From: a virus
Strand: one strand, 5' to 3'
Virus record (IMG/VR): IMGVR_UViG_3300031566_000170
Coordinates: 1-37,899 of that record
DNA: 37,899 bases
Numbering within the stretch: the stretch's first letter is position 1; every line of letters starts with the position of its first letter. This document shows, one piece after another, positions 20,999 through 33,830 of the stretch. A program made the translations under genes and the position numbers. The notes beneath the pieces were generated by a model. The model saw only the letters and a program-made list of their open reading frames with translations. It ran no database searches and was not told the origin of the DNA.

Positions 20999-22126
20999 AT
21001 GAACAAGTATGAACAGATAGTTGAATTTTTAACAAACGGCGAAACTGATAAAGCTCGTAGTTTATTCCACGACATTACAGTTGAAACAAGCCGCAAGATT
21101 TATGAAAGTCTAATAAGCGATGAAGATTTTGCAGATGTAAGCAATGACAAAACTGGTGATATTATCGACGACATTACAGATGAAGTTGAGAACGAAGAAA
21201 TTACAGATAGCGCAAAGACACTAGGTAAAGTTATTACTGCTGAAGAAGCAAAACAGTTATTGGACTATGTAGACGGTTCGATCAATGAAGGCGATCACGG
21301 AGAACTACTATCCAAAGTAGCAAGTTTCTACGGTGTTGCACAAGAGAGCGTTAAGGGCTCACTTGAGGAAAACAGCGATCAACTGTTAGATATTGCATAC
21401 GGCAAAGTAGCTGAGGACGACGACGAAATGCCTATGGGCGATGATCCAGAAGCAATGGGTGATGATCCAATGGCAGATCCAGAAGCAATGGGTGATGATC
21501 CAATGGCAGATCCAGAAGCTATGGGAGACGAAGTACCAGCCGAAGGCGCAATTGAAGATAGAGTATTAGATCTCGAAGACGCACTTGATGAACTTAAGAG
21601 CGAATTTGACGCAATTATGTCAGACGAAATGGGTGATGATCCAATGGCAGATCCAGAAGCAATGGACGATGATCCAATGGCAGATCCAGAAGCAATGGAC
21701 GATGATCCAGAAGCAATGGACGATGATCCAGAAGCAATGGGTGATGATCCAATGGCAGATCCAATTGAAAGCCGCAGATCGACACCGACATCAGCATCGG
21801 ACCTAATGCGTGAATATATTGAGAAAGTAAATGCACCAGAAAACACAGAAGGTAAGGGTGTTGCAGCTGGCGGAGCAGGAGCTAACGTAAATAAGAGCTC
21901 GGTTGTAGCTGGTAAGAATGACATGGGTGGAACTGCTAAGAACTTAGTCAAAGGCGGAACAAACTCTAACCCAGACGGAACTACTCCTCCATCAACCGAC
22001 AAGCCAGCAAACCTAAAGCACGCTGGAAGTTTCCAGAATGTTGCAGGTGGCAGAGTTAGACAGGGAAGTGCTAAAAGCCCAGTTACATCCGAGCCATCGG
22101 GTGTTAACAAAAGAAGCACTTTATAA
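20999..22126 (+). CDS. Acidic repeat protein, likely prohead core (gp68 position)
   Basis: 375 residues between the 67-like gene and protease gene 21, where T4 encodes core protein gp68 (141). Residues 1-140 are acidic and helical. About 144-178 and 208-260 are tandem repeats of an 11-residue unit (MGDDPMADPEA, with DDPEAM variants), separated by a helical segment (EDRVLDLEDALDELKSEFDA). The last 100 residues are Gly/Asn/Ser-rich and low in acid. A very acidic protein fits a core that is degraded by gp21 and expelled. The role is inferred from position and composition. The ATG follows AAAGGA; transcription likely starts at the octamer at 20961. Confidence 0.6.
   Translation: MNKYEQIVEFLTNGETDKARSLFHDITVETSRKIYESLISDEDFADVSNDKTGDIIDDITDEVENEEITDSAKTLGKVITAEEAKQLLDYVDGSINEGDHGELLSKVASFYGVAQESVKGSLEENSDQLLDIAYGKVAEDDDEMPMGDDPEAMGDDPMADPEAMGDDPMADPEAMGDEVPAEGAIEDRVLDLEDALDELKSEFDAIMSDEMGDDPMADPEAMDDDPMADPEAMDDDPEAMDDDPEAMGDDPMADPIESRRSTPTSASDLMREYIEKVNAPENTEGKGVAAGGAGANVNKSSVVAGKNDMGGTAKNLVKGGTNSNPDGTTPPSTDKPANLKHAGSFQNVAGGRVRQGSAKSPVTSEPSGVNKRSTL
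21439..21763 (+). repeat. Tandem in-frame repeats encoding Asp/Pro-rich units
   Basis: Two blocks (about 21439-21530 and 21628-21763) of near-identical 33-base and 15-base units built from GATGATCCAATGGCAGATCC and GATGATCCAGAAGCAATG. All lengths are multiples of three, so slippage would change copy number without breaking the frame. Confidence 0.85.
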
Positions 22127-22139
22127 GTAACTTAATAAT

Positions 22140-22772
22140 ATGACTGTATTATTGCGTGAACACCTTTCCTTCGACCAGGCTCAAATAATTGTTGAGAACG
22201 CTGGCGAGGGAAAGGATCTATATCTTAAAGGTATCTGTATACAAGGTGGCGTTAAAAATGCTAACCAACGTGTGTATCCAGTGGATGAAATTAGTCAAGC
22301 AGTCAAATCTGTTAATGAACAAATCAAAACAGGTTACAGTGTACTAGGTGAAGTTGATCACCCCGATGACCTGAAGGTTAATTTAGATCGCGTTAGTCAC
22401 GTTATCACAGAGATGTGGATGGACGGGCCTAACGGGTTCGGTAAAATGAAAATTATTCCTACTCCAATGGGAAATTTAGTTAAGACTATGTTGGAGTCGG
22501 GAGTAAAATTAGGAGTTAGCAGTAGAGGAAGCGGTAATGTAAATGAAGCTTCCGGTACCGTTAGCGAATTTGAAATAGTAACTATTGATGTCGTTGCACA
22601 GCCTAGCGCACCAGGTGCATATCCGACGCCCATATATGAGGGGCTGATGAATATGAAATTTGGTCATAGGACATTCGAAATGGCTAAGGACGCCAGTGCA
22701 GACTCGAGGGTACAAAAGTACTTAAAGGACGCTATGTTGCGTCTCATTAAGGACTTAAAACATGGAAAATAA
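22140..22772 (+). CDS. 21: Prohead core protease gp21
   Basis: 210-residue serine protease of the T4 prohead (T4 gp21 212). It cleaves core and capsid proteins after (L/I)-x-E during maturation. Visible are GEVDHPDDL with the likely catalytic His74, GVKLGVSSRGSG with the nucleophile Ser127 or Ser128, and the strand-loop FEIVTIDVVAQPSAPGA. These features are typical of the herpesvirus/T4-type protease fold. The gene follows the acidic core gene after 13 bases; scaffold gene 22 follows after 12 bases with AAGGAG. The ATG at 22140 has no clear Shine-Dalgarno. Confidence 0.95.
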   Translation: MTVLLREHLSFDQAQIIVENAGEGKDLYLKGICIQGGVKNANQRVYPVDEISQAVKSVNEQIKTGYSVLGEVDHPDDLKVNLDRVSHVITEMWMDGPNGFGKMKIIPTPMGNLVKTMLESGVKLGVSSRGSGNVNEASGTVSEFEIVTIDVVAQPSAPGAYPTPIYEGLMNMKFGHRTFEMAKDASADSRVQKYLKDAMLRLIKDLKHGK

Positions 22773-22784
22773 GGAGAACCATAA

Positions 22785-23849
22785 ATGCTAGAAGCTATCA
22801 AACCATTAATCGATAGCGGAATCGTAAATGAAGAAACCAAGAATCAGATTCAGGAAGCTTGGGATAATCAGATCGCCGAAGCAAAAGAAAGTGCCAAAGC
22901 GGAACTTCGTCAGGAGTTTGCGAATCGTTATGAACACGATAAAGCTGTAATGGTTGAAGCTGTAGAAAAGATGGTAAACGAATCTCTTAGAGAAGAGTTA
23001 GTTGAATTTGCAAACGATAAGAAAAAGATTGCTGAAGAAAGAGTAGCGTTCAAACGCTATGTTCAGACTACAGGCAAGAGTTTTCAGAATTTCCTAGCAA
23101 AAAGACTAGCTGAAGAAATTAAGGAATTGAGAGAAGATAGGAAGAATCAGTCAGCAATTATGAGTAAGCTGGAACAATTCGTAATTAATTCTCTCGCAGA
23201 AGAACTTAATGACTTCGCAAAAGACAAGAAAGACGTTACTGAAACAAAAGTTAAGCTTATTACTAGAGCCAGAGCTGGTCTAGTAGAAATTAAGAAACAA
23301 TTTGTTCAGCGTAGCGCCAAGCTTGTTAAAGAGGCAGTTACCAAAAATCTAAAAGCTGAACTAAAACAGTTTAAGAATGACATCAAGCTAGCACGTGAAA
23401 ATATGTTTGGTCGTAAAATTTACGAAGCTTTTGCTGGTGAATTTGCTATTACTCATCTTAACGAAAACGAAGAACTTAAGAAGCTGAAAACCCAATTAGC
23501 GATTAAGGACAAAGTGATTAGTGAGAGTAGAAAAGTGATTTCCGAAAAGCAACAACTCGTAGAAGGCGCCCAAAGGGATCGTACATTAAACGAACTCTTA
23601 ACGACTCTTACCAAAGAGAAGGCAAGCATAATGCGTGAACTACTTGAGAACGTGCAGACACCTAAGCTAAAGTCTGCATTTGACAAGTATCTACCAGCAG
23701 TTCTTAATGGCTCCCGTAGGTCATCTCCAAAGATGATCACCGAGGGACATAGAGAAGTTACTGGTGATAAAACTGCTAAGAAGGCAGCTGATTACGATAG
23801 TGTGAATAACATTATTGAGATTAAGCACCTAGCAGGGCTGAACAAGTAA
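22785..23849 (+). CDS. 22: Major prohead scaffold protein gp22
   Basis: 354 residues, almost wholly helical and highly charged (ELRQEFANRYEHDKAVMVEA, KKQFVQRSAKLVKEAVTKNL). It lies between protease 21 and capsid gene 23, as gp22 does in T4 (269 residues). The scaffold forms the inner core on which gp23 assembles and is then digested by gp21; many L-x-E sequences are present as possible cleavage sites. The C-terminus (KSAFDKYLPAVLNG) resembles the conserved end of gp22 proteins. The ribosome-binding site is AAGGAG. Identification rests mainly on order and coiled-coil character. Confidence 0.88.
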   Translation: MLEAIKPLIDSGIVNEETKNQIQEAWDNQIAEAKESAKAELRQEFANRYEHDKAVMVEAVEKMVNESLREELVEFANDKKKIAEERVAFKRYVQTTGKSFQNFLAKRLAEEIKELREDRKNQSAIMSKLEQFVINSLAEELNDFAKDKKDVTETKVKLITRARAGLVEIKKQFVQRSAKLVKEAVTKNLKAELKQFKNDIKLARENMFGRKIYEAFAGEFAITHLNENEELKKLKTQLAIKDKVISESRKVISEKQQLVEGAQRDRTLNELLTTLTKEKASIMRELLENVQTPKLKSAFDKYLPAVLNGSRRSSPKMITEGHREVTGDKTAKKAADYDSVNNIIEIKHLAGLNK

Positions 23850-23883: not shown

Positions 23884-25062
23884 ATGAAACAACCATTACT
23901 AGAAAGCCGTTGGGGTGAAACCAAAGAAGCCCTGTTAGAGGGTCTCAAAGGGACTCGCCGCACAACAATGGCAATTATACTAGAAAACACAAGAAAGAAA
24001 CTTGTTGAAAATGCTACTGCTGGTGCAACTGCATCGGGCAACATGGCAACTTTGAACAGAGTTATCCTTCCCGTTATTCGACGTGTGATGCCTACAGTTA
24101 TTGCAAATGAGATCGTTGGCGTACAGCCAATGCAAGGTCCAGTTGCACAAATTCATACCTTGCGTGTCCGTTATGCGGATACCATGAACGATACCAGTCC
24201 TACAAACACTGATACCGTTGCAGGTGATGAAGCATTAAGCCCATTTAAGATCGCTACAGCCTACGCTGGTGATGCGGCTACTGCTCGCGCAGGAAGCACA
24301 GCTAGCTTAGAAGGAAATCCAGGACGTAGAATGAACGTTCAGATCTTAAAACAGGTTGTTGAAGCTAAGACGCGTAAGTTAAGCGCACGTTGGACCTTTG
24401 AAGCAGCGCAAGACGCTGAGTCAATGCATGGTATCGACGTTGAAGCTGAAATTATGGCGGCTCTGGCACAAGAAATTACTACAGAAATCGATCAGGAAAT
24501 TCTTGGTAGCCTACGAGCATTAGCAGCAACAGAAGAAGCATACGACCAAGCAACAGTTTCTGGTACAGCAACATTCGTCGGTGACGAACACGCAGCTCTT
24601 GCGGTTCTCGTTAACCGAGTTGCTAACAGAATTGCTGCTCGTACACGTCGTGGTGCCGGTAACTGGGCAGTTGTAAGCCCACAGGCATTAACCGTGCTAC
24701 AAAGCGCAACAACTTCAGCATTTGCGCGCACTACCGAAGGTACTTTCGAAGCTCCTACGAACACCAAGTTCGTTGGAACATTGAACAGTGCAATGAAAGT
24801 TTTTGTCGACAGCTATGCACAGGACACAGTGCCTGTATTAGTTGGATACAAAGGTAGCAGCGAAGCAGACGCAGCAGCATTCTACTGCCCATATATTCCA
24901 TTAATGAGCAGCGGAGTTGTGTTAGATCCAGCAACGTTAGAGCCAGTAGTTGGCTTTATGACACGTTACGGATATGTGGAGCTCACTAATACTGCTTCAT
25001 CGCTAGGTAACGCAGGTGATTATCTAGGTGAAGTTACTATTGCTAACCTATCATTCCAGTAA
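23884..25062 (+). CDS. 23: Major capsid protein gp23
   Basis: 392-residue HK97-fold capsid protein of the T4 family. Family features are RRVMPTVIANEIVGVQPMQG (residues about 66-85), then PVAQIHTLRVRYAD, RKLSARWTFEAAQDAESMHG (about 164-183), INEIGLY-like turns replaced here by ITTEIDQEIL, and GNWAVVSPQAL. It is clearly shorter than T4 gp23 (521) and most cyanophage gp23. The N-terminus holds candidate gp21 sites (LLE, ALLEG, LVEN). The ribosome-binding site AAAGGAGA is strong. A TTCG-loop terminator follows, isolating the capsid transcript from the accessory block. Confidence 0.95.
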   Translation: MKQPLLESRWGETKEALLEGLKGTRRTTMAIILENTRKKLVENATAGATASGNMATLNRVILPVIRRVMPTVIANEIVGVQPMQGPVAQIHTLRVRYADTMNDTSPTNTDTVAGDEALSPFKIATAYAGDAATARAGSTASLEGNPGRRMNVQILKQVVEAKTRKLSARWTFEAAQDAESMHGIDVEAEIMAALAQEITTEIDQEILGSLRALAATEEAYDQATVSGTATFVGDEHAALAVLVNRVANRIAARTRRGAGNWAVVSPQALTVLQSATTSAFARTTEGTFEAPTNTKFVGTLNSAMKVFVDSYAQDTVPVLVGYKGSSEADAAAFYCPYIPLMSSGVVLDPATLEPVVGFMTRYGYVELTNTASSLGNAGDYLGEVTIANLSFQ

Positions 25063-25092: not shown

Positions 25093-25115
25093 AAACCCGG
25101 TTCGCCGGGTTTTTT
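25093..25115 (+). terminator. Intrinsic terminator after gene 23
   Basis: AAACCCGG (25093-25100), TTCG tetraloop, CCGGGTTT (25105-25112), then further T. The UUCG loop is common in T4-type terminators. Confidence 0.93.
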
Positions 25116-25138: not shown

Positions 25139-25146
25139 AATAAATA
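25139..25146 (+). promoter_or_regulatory. Late promoter octamer AATAAATA for the accessory block
   Basis: Only seven bases separate the octamer from the ATG at 25154 and no ribosome-binding site is present, so a leaderless transcript is predicted. Confidence 0.6.
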
Positions 25147-25153
25147 TTACATC

Positions 25154-25741
25154 ATGCGACTAAATGAACTAACTCGTCCAAAATCTATAATCCAGGATAT
25201 TACATCTAACTGTAAACAAATCCTAAGTCTGTACGCATCATTCCCAGGTAGGTATTTCTATAGAGGATCGAAAAGAAGTGGATCAATTTATAAAGGTAAC
25301 TCTTATCAAAATCGGATTCCCAAAGATACAGATCTGGCCATACACAAACTTGTGGTGGACGCAATGATTGATTTGGGATTCGCTGCCCATCGAGGCAATA
25401 GTATTTTTATGACGGGTAGTCGAAATACAGCTAAAGAATTTTCATCTCCCATACTAGGTGGACAAATTTATATTATCTTTCCAATCGATGGATTTCATTA
25501 TTCTTGGAGTTCTCAGGTAGATGATTTTTATAGTGATGTAATTGAAACAGCCGACATTGCATTTGGTACCGACGATAAGGACATACTCGAAATACTAGTC
25601 AACCTCGATTATAAAGACACCGACCTCGACAAGGCATTAAAATTTAGTAATTCGGCCGAAGTTATGGTACATGGTTCTTACTATGCTATCAATTCCAGTT
25701 ATGAAAAACAGGTAAATGCATTTATACAGGGGCTGAAGTAA
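25154..25741 (+). CDS. MRLxE-family protein A, putative ADP-ribosyltransferase-like
   Basis: 195 residues, paralogous to the proteins at 25741 and 27836. Shared elements in order: N-terminal MRLNEL; CKQILSLY; PGRYFYRG (residues about 31-38); R-PKD and a conserved His; GFAAHRGNSIFMTGS (about 75-89); IYIIFPIDGFHYSWS (about 105-119); DF; and AEVMVHGSYYAI near the C-terminus. The spaced Arg (YRG), S-x-F-x-T strand and E-V-M element resemble the R-S-E layout of ADP-ribosyltransferases such as T4 Alt and ModA. This is motif-level inference and other folds are possible. Late promoter and capsid-adjacent position suggest a virion-internal protein. Confidence 0.55.
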   Translation: MRLNELTRPKSIIQDITSNCKQILSLYASFPGRYFYRGSKRSGSIYKGNSYQNRIPKDTDLAIHKLVVDAMIDLGFAAHRGNSIFMTGSRNTAKEFSSPILGGQIYIIFPIDGFHYSWSSQVDDFYSDVIETADIAFGTDDKDILEILVNLDYKDTDLDKALKFSNSAEVMVHGSYYAINSSYEKQVNAFIQGLK

Positions 25742-26769
25742 TGCGGTTAAATGAAATTATTATTGAAGCCAAGACACAATATAATCTAGAATTATCAAAA
25801 TTATATGCAAAATTTTTACGAACAGCAGATAAAACAATTCCAAAACAAATTAAAAAAGAATTTGGTGACCGAGAATATAATCTTTTTAAATGGTGGCTTG
25901 ATCGAGGCTATCGCCACATTAAAGAATTATTAAAACCAGACAATAAATTGTTTTCTACCCCAGATCTAAAGACTGGTGTAAGTTGGTCAGCATATTCGTT
26001 ACTAAGTGAAATTGTATCTTCTGATGCCGTTGATCCAAAAATAGTATTAACACCAGGCCAATATGCACTTCTAGTTAAAAAAGCAAAATTAGCAAAACAA
26101 GTAATTACTAAAGGACGACAATTTAAAGGAAAAGAAAAGAAAAATGTCGAAAAAATAGCCGCCTATACGGATCCAATTATTGTTAAGCAAATAGAGGAGA
26201 AATTGTTGGCGATGTACCCTCGTTGTAAACAAATTTTTAGCCTATACAAAAAATATCCTGGCAAATATTTTTATAGAGGAACAAACCATTTAATGATATA
26301 TTACAATAAAACTCCACCAAAGGGACGCAGACCAAGAGACTCTGACGAAGATATCCATACGGATATAATAAAAGCGATGAAGGCTAATGGATTTAAAGCT
26401 CATCGAGGTAATAGTATTTTTATGACATCTGATATGGAACAAGCTGATGGATATGCGACTGGTCCTCCCAGCCGTGCAGGCCAGCCTTCACGCGGCCTTT
26501 ACATTATTTTTCCATTAGATGGATTTAACTATTCCTGGAGTCCGAAAGTACAGGATTTTGAAGGCTTTTATAAAGATGACCCACACTCATTGGGAATTGA
26601 TATTGAGAATGGTATAGATGAATATCTTAGACAGGCTGAATATACAAACAAAAGAATTGACGCGGCATTAAAATCTGGACATGAAGTTATGACTAATTCT
26701 AAATACTATGCAATATCTACAAAGTATATTCCTATTATAACTGATTATATTAAAAATATGAGATCTTAA
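25741..26769 (+). CDS. MRLxE-family protein B with extra N-terminal domain
   Basis: 342 residues. The C-terminal half (about 160-342) is a paralogue of protein A: CKQIFSLYKKYPGKYFYRGT, GFKAHRGNSIFMTSD, LYIIFPLDGFNYSWSP, HEVMTNSKYYAIS. The N-terminal 155 residues are a separate, Lys-rich helical region (NLFKWWLDRGYRHIKELLK, KKAKLAKQVI) not found in A or C. It again begins MRLNEI. The start codon overlaps the stop of protein A by one base (TAATG), so the genes are coupled. The N-terminal half looks more AT-rich than its neighbours. The enzymatic role is as uncertain as for A. Confidence 0.55.
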   Translation: MRLNEIIIEAKTQYNLELSKLYAKFLRTADKTIPKQIKKEFGDREYNLFKWWLDRGYRHIKELLKPDNKLFSTPDLKTGVSWSAYSLLSEIVSSDAVDPKIVLTPGQYALLVKKAKLAKQVITKGRQFKGKEKKNVEKIAAYTDPIIVKQIEEKLLAMYPRCKQIFSLYKKYPGKYFYRGTNHLMIYYNKTPPKGRRPRDSDEDIHTDIIKAMKANGFKAHRGNSIFMTSDMEQADGYATGPPSRAGQPSRGLYIIFPLDGFNYSWSPKVQDFEGFYKDDPHSLGIDIENGIDEYLRQAEYTNKRIDAALKSGHEVMTNSKYYAISTKYIPIITDYIKNMRS

Positions 26770-26770
26770 A

Positions 26771-26890
26771 ATGAGATTACATGAAATAGATTTGAAACCT
26801 GGGCGGTTAAATGAAATTCTGATTAATGGTGCCTACTACGCAATTAATTATAAGATTGGAGTAAATATGATATTAGAGGGAAAACAATGA
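26771..26890 (+). pseudogene. 39-codon relic of a fourth MRLxE-family gene
   Basis: An intact short frame, MRLHEIDLKPG followed by RLNEILINGAYYAINYKIGV and a short tail. It joins the family N-terminus (MRLxEI) directly to the family C-terminus (E-V/I-M/L-x-NG-YYAIN), so the whole catalytic middle is missing. The end matches protein C especially (NG-YYAIN and IGVN). It begins one base after the stop of gene B, and its stop overlaps the papain-like start as ATGA. The most likely reading is an in-frame deletion of a former full-length paralogue, kept perhaps because it couples translation. It may still make a small peptide. Confidence 0.7.
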
Positions 26891-27828
26891 CTATTAATTA
26901 TAAAGACCTAATACAAAAGAACTTTAAGCCGTCGAAGCCAGATGCTAGAGATCATATAGCAAAAGTGTCGGCGCCCGCAAGACTGCCTGTATCAATTGAC
27001 TTAAAGCCGTGGGCAGACGAGGTAGAGGATCAATTAAACATTGGTTCCTGTACTGCTAACGCAGGATGTTCTGCATTAGAATTAGCATACCTACGCGCAG
27101 GACACTCGAAGGATTTTTCAAGGTTATATTTGTATTGGTTTACAAGATTACTTGGTGGCTTAACTGGTGACTCGGGTGCTTATCCGAGGGACATTGGTAG
27201 AGCTTTAAATAAGTACGGTGTTTGTTTAGAAGCATCTTGGGACTATGACGTAACTAAGTATGATGTTGAACCGCCTGCGCCAGCACAAGCTGAGGCAGTA
27301 GAATATTTAACAAAAGAATATGCAAGAATTATTGGTACACCGACAGACGTAATTAGTCAAATTAAAGACAGTTTAGCGCAAGGAATACCTGTGCTTACTT
27401 CGATGGCAGTACACGATTCATTTTTTTATCTGCGTGGAGATTGGAAAACCCACACATGGGATTCTGTTACGACAACTACAAATCCAATAGCAGGATATCA
27501 CGAAGTTCTTATTATCGGCTATGACGATGTTTCGCAACGTTTTCTAGCTGAGAACTCTTGGGGTTCAAGCTTTGGAGACGGTGGATTCTTTGGAATACCT
27601 TACTCATTCATCGGCGGAGTAATTGATGAATGGTGGGTGCTAAGTGTAATTGCTATTGACTATGTCCCATTTACTGATGTAGATCCGCAGCCAACACCAG
27701 TACCTCCTGCACCAGTACCTCCTACACCAACACCAACACCAGAAGACAAAGAGAATGCATGGGTGCCGTATGTTGTCGGCGGCGCAGTTGTCCTATTTGT
27801 AATACTTAAAGCAACAGGTATTATTTAA
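26887..27828 (+). CDS. Papain-like (C1A) cysteine protease with C-terminal membrane anchor
   Basis: 313 residues. The C1A catalytic set is visible: EDQLNIGSCTANAGCSALE with Cys55, AGYHEVLIIGYDD with His205, and AENSWGSSFGDGGFFGIPYS with Asn223. The N-terminus FKPSKPDARDHIAKVSAPARL resembles bacterial C1A proteins that lack a long propeptide. Residues 267-285 are a Pro/Thr linker, and 292-313 (WVPYVVGGAVVLFVILKATG) form one membrane helix at the extreme C-terminus. No signal peptide is seen, so a cytoplasmic catalytic domain with tail anchoring is one possibility. It lies inside the MRLxE block. The target is unknown. Confidence 0.82.
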   Translation: MTINYKDLIQKNFKPSKPDARDHIAKVSAPARLPVSIDLKPWADEVEDQLNIGSCTANAGCSALELAYLRAGHSKDFSRLYLYWFTRLLGGLTGDSGAYPRDIGRALNKYGVCLEASWDYDVTKYDVEPPAPAQAEAVEYLTKEYARIIGTPTDVISQIKDSLAQGIPVLTSMAVHDSFFYLRGDWKTHTWDSVTTTTNPIAGYHEVLIIGYDDVSQRFLAENSWGSSFGDGGFFGIPYSFIGGVIDEWWVLSVIAIDYVPFTDVDPQPTPVPPAPVPPTPTPTPEDKENAWVPYVVGGAVVLFVILKATGII

Positions 27829-27835
27829 GGAACAC

Positions 27836-28474
27836 ATGCGATTAGTTGAGATCGAAGACCCCTCATCCGACAAAGTAGCGACAGTGGCCAAGAGCATTTT
27901 AACAAGATGCTCTGATATTGTTAACTTTTACAGGACAATTCCTCGAAGCCCGGGTGATTTTTTTATGCGTGGAACATCTGCGCATATCAAAAACCCAGGG
28001 TTTTTTGGGGCGGTTGATTATTATAGATCTAGATCAAATCCAGATAGAAGCCCAAAGGATGTTTCCCTTAATGTGCATAATAAAATAGTCGAATGGATGG
28101 TGGATATGAAGTTTGCAGCCCATCGAGGCAACAGTATCTTTGTAACCTCAGATAGTAAAGAAGCACATGAGATGTACGGTCGCCTCTTTATTATTTTTCC
28201 GGTTAATGGATTTAGCTATACCTGGAGTAAAATGCACAAGGATTTCTTTAAGAGTATCGAACACAGCAAAGATGTACGAGAACAGATACTTGAGTTAGAT
28301 ATGGATAGCATACAGGACATAAGATGGTTTGATAACTTTTTTCAATTCCAAAATCACAACTTAGAACAAGCATTTCAATCTAAAAATGAAGTGATGATTA
28401 ACGGCGAATATTATGCAATAAATAATAGTCACAGTGACTTTGTAGAAAATTCAATTATTGGAGTAAACAAATGA
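27836..28474 (+). CDS. MRLxE-family protein C, putative ADP-ribosyltransferase-like
   Basis: 212 residues, the third full-length paralogue. N-terminus MRLVEIEDPSS, then LTRCSDIVNFY, PGDFFMRGTS (the YRG position), R-PKD, FAAHRGNSIFVTSDSKEAHE, RLFIIFPVNGFSYTWSK, DFF, and NEVMINGEYYAIN. It differs from A by a longer insert around residues 48-70 and in the region before the E-V-M element. The ribosome-binding site is AAGGA. Its stop overlaps the lipoprotein start as ATGA. Function rests on the same motif argument as for A; a virion-delivered modifying enzyme is a hypothesis. Confidence 0.55.
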   Translation: MRLVEIEDPSSDKVATVAKSILTRCSDIVNFYRTIPRSPGDFFMRGTSAHIKNPGFFGAVDYYRSRSNPDRSPKDVSLNVHNKIVEWMVDMKFAAHRGNSIFVTSDSKEAHEMYGRLFIIFPVNGFSYTWSKMHKDFFKSIEHSKDVREQILELDMDSIQDIRWFDNFFQFQNHNLEQAFQSKNEVMINGEYYAINNSHSDFVENSIIGVNK

Positions 28475-28842
28475 GAAATTTACTTATAGCAATTAGCTTT
28501 ATGTTCTTAGCAGGATGTTCAACTTTCCTTCCACCTAAGCATGATAACATTATCTTTTTTGAGATGGTAAAAATTGACATAATGATGGAAGGTATCCCGT
28601 GCCCAGAGAATATGATTCCATATTGGCTGCCTTGGGCTGTTATCGCAGAAGATTTACAAATTTTAGTTAGGTATGCCGATTGGAGACATGACCCACAGTT
28701 AGATAACATAATTGGTATGTATAACAATGCTAAAAAGTTGTCTGTCCCTGACGTAATAAAAACACGGGCATTCTGCGAGCTGTCTAAAAAAGTAGCAAGA
28801 GAAAGAATTGGCGCCTTGCGTCACGCTTGGGAAGGAAGATAA
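28471..28842 (+). CDS. Small lipoprotein of unknown function
   Basis: 123 residues with a clear lipoprotein signal: MRNLLIAISFMFLAGCSTF, lipobox LAGC with Cys16 as the acylated residue. The mature part is not proline-rich and has a conserved-looking PCPENMIPYWLPWAVIAEDL segment and a basic helix at the end. A lipoprotein at the end of a late operon could be an outer spanin or a superinfection-exclusion protein, but no spanin partner is obvious here. The start overlaps the protein C stop (ATGA) and uses GGAG. Confidence 0.65.
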   Translation: MRNLLIAISFMFLAGCSTFLPPKHDNIIFFEMVKIDIMMEGIPCPENMIPYWLPWAVIAEDLQILVRYADWRHDPQLDNIIGMYNNAKKLSVPDVIKTRAFCELSKKVARERIGALRHAWEGR

Positions 28843-31018: not shown

Positions 31019-31093
31019 TGGCGCGTCTGATGGGATTCGAACCCACTATTTAGAGTTTTAGAGACCCTTGCTTAACCATTCAGCTTCAGACGC
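31019..31093 (-). tRNA. tRNA-Arg (anticodon TCT)
   Basis: Full cloverleaf: acceptor GCGTCTG/CAGACGC, D arm GCTGAATGGTTAAGC, anticodon stem AGGGT/ACTCT with loop CTCTAAA (anticodon TCT, reads AGA/AGG), T loop TTCGAAT, discriminator G, CCA encoded. An AGA-reading tRNA is common in AT-rich phages infecting hosts that use this codon less. Confidence 0.93.
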
Positions 31094-31483: not shown

Positions 31484-32020
31484 TTAAGCGTTCACCATAT
31501 TGATAGCTTTTTCGGTAGTTTCGTTCACCCGTCTTGTCCATCCTCTGCCAAATGTATCAAAGTGGTGCAATGATTCGTAATATTCCTGTCGACTTTGTTG
31601 ATACTTATGAACACTAACTTCGACGGAATGTTCAGTTACATATTCATTTACTTTGGCTAAAGTGTTCGGTCCAATTTGTCCATCATCAGCAGCTCCTACT
31701 AGATTTTGTAGGTACCTTGCGGCGCGACCCGGACCGGCGTTGACGCCAAAATCAAATACACATAGATCTAATCCTTTGGGAAGATCGTCACCGTGTACTT
31801 TATCCCAATAATTCTTTTTGTAAATTGGTGAAACGTCGGCAACTGTTAAAGCCCGCATTTCATCTACGGATACCTTCTTTCCAACCCAAGATTCAAAGAC
31901 ATGTTTGGTAACACCCAAATTAGTTGCTCCACCTGGATCTTTGGGGTGGTTTACAAAACCTCCCTCATGCTGTAAAATAATCTTAATGCATTCGTCAAAG
32001 TTGTTAGTTGCCATAACCAT
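31484..32020 (-). CDS. Endolysin, GH108-type N-acetylmuramidase
   Basis: 178 residues of the glycoside hydrolase family 108 type. The catalytic motif EGGFVNHPKDPGGATNLG starts with Glu19 as the likely acid. It is followed by YKKNYWDKVHGDDLPKGLDL, then FDFGVNAGPGRAARYLQ and a C-terminal peptidoglycan-binding region (GQIGPNTLAKVN...GWTRRVNETTEKA). It cuts peptidoglycan glycan strands for lysis. No signal peptide or membrane segment is visible, so a holin is needed; none was identified in the window. Two ATG codons (32020 and 32014) lie behind AAGGAA. It diverges from 32071 with face-to-face late promoters between. Confidence 0.92.
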   Translation of the reverse strand: MVMATNNFDECIKIILQHEGGFVNHPKDPGGATNLGVTKHVFESWVGKKVSVDEMRALTVADVSPIYKKNYWDKVHGDDLPKGLDLCVFDFGVNAGPGRAARYLQNLVGAADDGQIGPNTLAKVNEYVTEHSVEVSVHKYQQSRQEYYESLHHFDTFGRGWTRRVNETTEKAINMVNA

Positions 32021-32372: not shown

Positions 32373-33830
32373 ATGATTTCCTGGGGCATATCTGCCGACA
32401 GTCACGATGCCGCATTGGCGGTATTCAACGACAACAGTCTAGTTTTTGCAAGTGAAGCAGAACGCTTTTCGCGTATTAAAAACGACCGAAACTTACACGA
32501 TGATTTAGTAGACTATGCATCCTCCAAGTTTGGTTGGCCACAAAAATTATATTGGTACGAAAAGCCAATCCTTAAATCATTACGTCAATTCAAAGCAGGA
32601 CAAGGATTTGTTGCTAACGACATTCAACGTTATCTCAAAAGTTATGGGATAGTAGCACCGATCAATTATCAAAAGCATCACCGTAGCCACGCCGCAGCGG
32701 GCTATTTTACATCAACGTTTGATAACGCTTGCATCGTAGTAATAGATGCCATAGGCGAGTTTGAAACGTTAACATTGTGGCGAGCAGCCGGTCACAAACT
32801 TACTAAACTGTACACCTTAAGTTTCCCCCATAGTGTTGGCTTATGGTATTCTGCAATGACGCAACGTTGTGGGTTGAAGCCGAATGAGGAAGAATATATT
32901 TTGATGGGAATGGCAGCATTGGGCGATCCGGCGAAATTGCAATTAAGCATACAATACGATTTCTTTGACAGTATTTGGCCAATAAAATTTAAAAAGAATT
33001 TACACAGAGGATGTAAAGACTGGCGCCCAGACCTAACATCACAGCAAGACATATATGATATTGCTGCAACTACGCAACGGATTTATGAAACAATTTTCTC
33101 TGCCATTCTAGCATGTGCAAGAGAATTTTCTCACAGTGAGAACCTAGTCCTAATAGGCGGTTGCGCATTAAATTGTGCAGCTAATCCGATCGCATTTAAA
33201 CACTTTGAAAACGTTTGGATTATGCCTGCGCCCGGGGATGCCGGGTCTGCTATTGGCGCAGTCTTATCAGCTAAGAACAGACACATAGAATGGCCGGGGC
33301 CGTACTTGGGATATGACCTAGGCTATACTGCTACCGAAGAACAGATTGTAGACTATTTAATAGAGAATAAGATCTGCGGAGTAGCAAGAGGCAAAGCCGA
33401 GTTTGGTCCTCGTGCGTTAGGAAATAGAAGTTTATTAGCTGATCCTCGAGGACAAGACATTAAAGACAAAGTAAATGAGTTGAAGCATAGAGAACAGTTC
33501 AGACCGTTCGCACCGGCGATCTTGCAAGAACATGCAGGAACTTATTTTGATATGCCAACATATGATTCTCCATACATGCAATATGTCGCTCGTTGCAAGA
33601 AACCCGATGAGTTTCCTGCTATTGTTCACTTCGACAATACCAGTCGTGTTCAAACAGTAGGAAAGAACGACGACCCAAGATTTAGAAAATTACTAGAGGT
33701 ATGGTATGAAAGAACAGGTTGTCCTATGTTGTTAAACACTAGCCTTAACATTAAGGGCGAGCCGATGGTTAATAACGAGAACGATGTCAAAGCATGGTCA
33801 AATAAGTACAACGTACCCATTTTTAGTTAG
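32373..33830 (+). CDS. NodU/CmcH-family carbamoyltransferase
   Basis: 485 residues. Members transfer carbamoyl from carbamoyl phosphate, through an adenylate intermediate, to hydroxyl groups of sugars or antibiotics. The N-terminal Kae1-like domain shows GISADSHDAALAVF, QKHHRSHAAAGYFTSTFDNA, GGCALNCAANPI and MPAPGDAGSAIGAVL. The C-terminal domain shows ARGKAEFGPRALGNRSLLAD, then REQFRPFAPAILQEH and NTSLNIKGEPMV. It is complete but ends soon after the last motif. Such genes are frequent in T4-like cyanophages; modification of a phage or host glycan is likely. A late promoter for the next gene lies just after its stop. Confidence 0.92.
   Translation: MISWGISADSHDAALAVFNDNSLVFASEAERFSRIKNDRNLHDDLVDYASSKFGWPQKLYWYEKPILKSLRQFKAGQGFVANDIQRYLKSYGIVAPINYQKHHRSHAAAGYFTSTFDNACIVVIDAIGEFETLTLWRAAGHKLTKLYTLSFPHSVGLWYSAMTQRCGLKPNEEEYILMGMAALGDPAKLQLSIQYDFFDSIWPIKFKKNLHRGCKDWRPDLTSQQDIYDIAATTQRIYETIFSAILACAREFSHSENLVLIGGCALNCAANPIAFKHFENVWIMPAPGDAGSAIGAVLSAKNRHIEWPGPYLGYDLGYTATEEQIVDYLIENKICGVARGKAEFGPRALGNRSLLADPRGQDIKDKVNELKHREQFRPFAPAILQEHAGTYFDMPTYDSPYMQYVARCKKPDEFPAIVHFDNTSRVQTVGKNDDPRFRKLLEVWYERTGCPMLLNTSLNIKGEPMVNNENDVKAWSNKYNVPIFS

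Follow-up and report, generated by a model that had tools for sequence, protein, structure and literature searches.

Genes A, B and C and their surroundings

The window analysed here is positions 1 to 37,899 of IMG/VR virus record IMGVR_UViG_3300031566_000170, and our subject is three genes between positions 25154 and 28474, whose products are called proteins A, B and C. A first-pass annotation, made from the letters alone, had described them as capsid-linked paralogues with ADP-ribosyltransferase (ART)-like motifs. The three open reading frames (ORFs), all on the plus strand, were confirmed. Protein A (25154 to 25741, 195 amino acid residues) starts with MRLNEL, and its motifs and model point to an ART-like domain with R37, R54, R80, S83 and E169. 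Protein B (25741 to 26769, 342 residues) starts with MRLNEIIIEA and has an N-terminal extension of about 140 residues, of unassigned fold; the shared ART-like domain is confined to its C-terminal half, residues 160 to 342 approximately (26131 to 26748). Protein C (27836 to 28474, 212 residues) starts with MRLVEI, again followed by an ART-like domain. The paralogy was borne out by BLASTP, with 41% identity between A and B (E 6e-40), 33% between A and C (E 7e-37) and 31% between B and C (E 4e-27), and every motif that had been quoted was found in all three proteins.

A remnant of a fourth paralogue lies between B and a peptidase gene (26771 to 26890, plus strand; profile E 7.7e-4). In this decayed copy the leader MRLHEI is fused almost directly to the E-motif NEILINGAYYAI, and the short reading frame of 39 residues is intact. 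The peptidase (26887 to 27828, plus strand) is papain-like (Pfam Peptidase_C1, 3.1e-10) and belongs to the same operon, with no role assigned. It carries a proline-rich linker and a C-terminal hydrophobic helix, and its relatives are found in Burkholderia phage FLC9 and a 595-kb uncultured phage. From 25154 to 28842 the genes overlap or almost touch, as in one operon.

Upstream, also on the plus strand, are a gp21-type prohead protease, the presumed processing enzyme (22140 to 22772; PHROG head maturation protease, 3.7e-58), a protein of an unnamed family (22785 to 23849; phrog_10922, 3.8e-81, function unknown), for which its position suggests a gp22 scaffold role, and the major capsid protein gp23 (23884 to 25062; Pfam Gp23, 2.4e-97). 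The genes had been placed directly after gene 23, and this order stands, but an intrinsic terminator read from the sequence, AACCCGG-TTCG-CCGGGTT-TTTT (25094 to 25115, plus strand), marks the boundary between gp23 and the operon. The late promoter that had been proposed fared poorly. Its sole candidate, AATAAATA (25139 to 25146, plus strand), is a weak T4-type site 7 bp before the start codon of A, with one mismatch to T4 TATAAATA. Exact TATAAATA occurs five times in the window against 4.2 expected; the count is not above chance, and the T4-type promoter was set aside as an argument. The closest relative contig, L006 (L numbers denote loci of the set described below), has the same layout: gp23, a terminator of the same kind, an exact TATAAATA, a GIY-YIG-like ORF and then two family members. 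The GIY-YIG-like ORF (L006:4887-5621) was named from reading its sequence alone.

A multi-copy family with a predicted ART fold

Searches of viral contigs with a single protein or with the three sequences gave no relatives; a ten-sequence alignment yielded 48 loci in IMG/VR. A subsequent profile search returned 195 ORFs, 110 of them distinct, and residue conservation was counted on 82 sequences. Single phage records hold 21, 19, 14 and 13 copies. Salicola phage SCTP-2 has 14, and Agrobacterium phage Atu_ph07 has 13, twelve of which lie within eleven tandem genes. In the tree, expansions recur within phage lineages, and A, B and C form one supported clade with the L006 copy; the family has expanded by repeated duplication within phage lineages. 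The earlier suggestion that a minimal transferase gave rise to several injected enzymes is consistent with these counts, although the number, up to 21 copies per record, is larger than had been thought. Two members are broken by in-frame stops (L040:9878-10803 and L024:8608-9102). Recoding of their in-frame TAGs was rejected because many further stops follow, which looks like decay; such copies are to be expected where family members arise and decay rapidly. The profile did not find the family in Phosso, Vibrio phage 2.275.O, Kaldavass, PA5oct, FLC9, Motura, RaK2 or T4.

Some copies carry additional domains. In each of two unrelated phages an ART-like domain is joined to a zeta-toxin-like kinase domain (L026:16157-18493 and L028:9242-10720), and an Atu_ph07 copy (L026:7385-8473) has a GNAT-like N-terminal domain by a weak Pfam match.

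At E <= 0.1 none of the 82 members matched any of the Pfam ART models, which include ART-PolyVal, FRG and Arr-ms, no Pfam or NCBIfam model matched the family, and the three PHROGs that do match it are all of function unknown. A sequence-profile search of the PDB gave chance matches only. The structural models were more informative. The AlphaFold (AF2) model of A has a predicted local distance difference test score (pLDDT) of 91 and a predicted template modelling score (pTM) of 0.87. Its best VIA match is 2aua, the function-unknown protein BC2332 of Bacillus cereus (Z 8.1, 133 residues, root-mean-square deviation 3.6). The Pfam family PF10386, considered for 2aua, had no matches anywhere and is uninformative. 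Rifampin ADP-ribosyltransferase Arr follows with Z 5.7 and 5.1, then DarT (3.8), SAIP (3.5), TreX (3.5), PARP3 (2.9), OspC3 and other ARTs; nearly all matches are ARTs and very few are unrelated, at modest Z. A second model, from a far branch of the family (pLDDT 89), gave five VIA matches, four of them ART-fold proteins, at Z 2.6 to 3.3. The structure prediction and search that the first-pass annotation had proposed returned ART-fold matches, weak ones, and the two models make it very probable that the family has an ART fold. BC2332 and Arr are the best structural matches of A, but share only 11-12% sequence identity with it. Arr uses H-Y-D residues, whereas the family has R and E instead.

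Conservation across the 82 sequences is strongest at R54 and R80 (both 100%), S83 (99%), G38 (96%), E169 (96%, with D in 4%), G174 (95%) and R37 (91%); P110 and D124 are also conserved. In the model of A, R37-G38 falls within strand 36-39, as for the first-strand Arg of ARTs with the R-S-E (Arg-Ser-Glu) layout, and E169 begins strand 169-173. By the model, the Arg and Glu occupy the strand positions expected of R-S-E enzymes.

Like T4 Alt and ModA/ModB, the family has an Arg-Gly strand, a putative Ser/Thr strand and an E-V-M/I element in that order (ModA LWRG ... EQEVMIPAG). Unlike them, it lacks STS and E-x-E, and it comes as many short copies rather than one large Alt. Membership of the T4 Alt/Mod family was checked by profile comparison and rejected: hhalign gave probabilities of 0.4% (Alt) and 2.1% (Mod), with reversed controls at 0.2% and 0.1%, and the sole piece aligned with Mod was the LYRG/LWRG strand. 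The family may plausibly work like Alt, but it is not a member of Alt/Mod. E/Q-x-E in R-S-E transferases helps choose the acceptor, so, since the E-x-E of Alt/Mod is absent, acceptor choice should differ from theirs. We take this to be a new ART-fold family that has diverged very far, lies nearest to the R-S-E clade and falls outside Alt/Mod. As to enzyme class, the fold and the conserved Arg and Glu speak for the transferase assignment made earlier, while the Ser of R-S-E is not secured; an active NAD-using enzyme is probable.

An N-terminal tag and the case for packaging

Sixty-nine of the 110 members (63%) start with M[KR]-hydrophobic-x-[EQ][ILF], and A, B, C and the remnant copy are all tagged. 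Of 777 unrelated ORFs in these loci, 41 carry the tag as well, where 200 rounds of shuffling gave a mean of 1.3 and a maximum of 5; among 3041 internal methionines it occurs at only 5. The unrelated proteins that are tagged or similarly led include zeta-toxin-like kinases, NT5C nucleotidases, a GNAT and an ART-PolyVal protein; this last (L038:1841-2548, minus strand) is a known ART-PolyVal protein (2e-21) that begins MRLNEI. In addition, L/I-x-E occurs within residues 1-12 in 80% of members and in 14% of other ORFs. The published rule for cleavage by T4 gp21 is L/I-x-E, and ten N-terminal residues of T4 IPIII suffice for packaging (PMC9026906).

Several T4 proteins start in a similar way, namely ipII/ipIII (MKTYQEFIAEA) and Alt (MELITELFDED), the latter being packaged in the head with an N-terminal propeptide (PMC9026906). 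When E was also allowed at position 2, the pattern picked out 7 of 79 T4 coding sequences (CDS), among them ipI, ipII, ipIII and Alt; it was widened after Alt had been seen and serves as an illustration, not a test. Like the capsid targeting sequence of T4 IPI-III, the tag is basic at residue 2, has E/Q directly before I/L/F, leads on to an L/I-x-E near the N-terminus and is common to unrelated cargo. Unlike in that sequence, the family core is one residue shorter (M-K-I-N-E-I against M-K-T-Y-Q-E-F), and cleavage in the family is putative.

Virion data bear on the same question. The family array of Atu_ph07 is CDS 53-63, numbered from the record start and checked against the published gp2 ClpX, gp4-5 topoisomerase and gp70 primase/helicase. 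It falls within the cluster CDS 31-76, for which mass spectrometry detected 29 of the 46 products in virions; just two of these 29 had been expected (PMC6102473). The reasons first given for delivery, adjacency to gp23 and a late promoter, are weak, the former because adjacency is seen only in the window and L006; the term capsid-linked is true of that lineage and not of the whole family. The tag, which resembles a capsid targeting sequence, and the place of the Atu_ph07 array in a virion-protein cluster give the claim better ground. On this evidence packaging and injection of the family appear likely, and we hold to them with moderate confidence.

The short tag (M-K/R-hydrophobic-x-E-I/L, often with an L/I-x-E site) would bring the proteins into the prohead core, where the gp21 protease may trim them. 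Packaged alongside the DNA, they would reach the host cell during injection and there modify its molecules using NAD, and each copy might have a target of its own. More tentatively, and here we stop short of favouring the idea, large T4-like phages might carry M[KR]-hydrophobic-x-[EQ][ILF] as a general N-terminal address tag that marks an arsenal of unrelated injected effectors. Such an arsenal could comprise dozens of ART-like enzymes, zeta-type kinases, acetyltransferases and nucleotidases, and effectors could be found from the tag alone.

Similar cases are known. ARTs of myoviruses have been argued to be often packaged and injected; the same survey reports members of 16 viral ART families and at least 10 ARTs in phage G (Iyer et al. 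2022, PMC9503650). Like the ARTs of that survey (including ART-PolyVal), the present family has a predicted ART fold, occurs in myoviruses and is presumed to be injected; unlike them, it matches no Pfam ART model, and it reaches 13-21 copies against the at least 10 of phage G. Agrobacterium and Salicola phages are unmentioned in the main text of the survey. The head of phage SPN3US contains paralogue family B, all 20 virion members of which are in the head (PMC5694885). It is likewise a large multi-copy family of a giant phage, but has no known ART relation, belongs to a different phage group and has long propeptides.

Weighing the explanations

The best overall explanation, which we favour a little more cautiously than packaging by itself, is that A, B and C belong to a very divergent and hitherto unnamed ART-fold family of large T4-like phages and act as injected effectors. 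Several observations weigh against it. Foldseek against the PDB gave nothing significant with the A model (best E 0.044), the Z-scores of the second model are low, and a profile match to Alt/Mod is absent. In register with T4 ModA (VSASYDKNIALHF), the STS serine corresponds to position 86, where most members have C or V and protein A has M. S83 stands three residues before that position and, judged from the alignment, may not be a serine of the catalytic type; position 87 is T/S in 87% of sequences. E/Q-x-E is absent from the family: at -2 of E169 most sequences have G/K/N/D, and 5 of the 82 have E. Protein A lacks a Glu at the second of the expected cleavage positions, gp23 adjacency is lacking in the other phages of the set, and the 29 detected Atu_ph07 proteins could in principle all be non-ART.

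A rival reading has ART-fold enzymes that are produced late and act within the infected cell without being packaged, for host shut-off, exclusion of rival phages or modification of phage proteins, with the tag serving, for example, scaffold binding or as translation start context. Most copies do lie away from head genes, and A and C have no exact T4-like gp21 cleavage geometry. We think this unlikely, given that enzymes of unrelated types carry the tag too, a known polyvalent-type ART among them, that it matches packaged T4 proteins and that the virion cluster takes in the array of Atu_ph07. The missing E/Q-x-E and the zeta-toxin-like kinases fused to or near family members would instead fit NADases or toxin-like enzymes, not transferases, whose copies would exhaust NAD or behave like the toxins of toxin-antitoxin systems. 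A-C have no visible antitoxin partner next to them, as many as 21 diverged copies would not be needed to deplete NAD, and we regard the idea as improbable. Least probable, and by a small step only, are inactive ART-like folds with a binding or structural role in the virion: the STS serine position holds C/V/M instead and Atu_ph07 has capsid-associated fibres (PMC6102473), but retention of the Arg and Glu at 91-96% across very diverged copies is unusual for a purely structural role.

The kind of system proposed, injected effectors of an ART-fold family, is already known, both as head-packaged, injected myovirus ARTs (PMC9503650) and as large packaged paralogue families (SPN3US, PMC5694885). The family itself, its amplification and its shared tag appear new relative to those accounts; it had been filed as of unknown function, and its amplification exceeds any noted by Iyer et al. 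2022 (PMC9503650). With a tagged family of so many copies, these phages may deliver entire sets of enzymes that modify the host. If the tag is a capsid address, the virion cargo of uncultured giant phages would be predictable from sequence, and virion proteins that have long lacked an assignment, in Atu_ph07 and phages like it, would become testable host-takeover enzymes.

Three further features of the window were recorded. An acidic protein with many DDPMADPEAMGDDP-type repeats and no PHROG match is encoded at 20999 to 22126 (plus strand), between portal and gp21, the place of the T4 core proteins. A tRNA with a CTA anticodon, of the amber suppressor type, lies at 31019 to 31093 on the minus strand (ARAGORN call tRNA-Pyl); few window genes end in TAG. 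A carbamoyltransferase (32373 to 33830, plus strand; Pfam 1e-53) is located beside an endolysin-like GH108 protein at 31484 to 32020.

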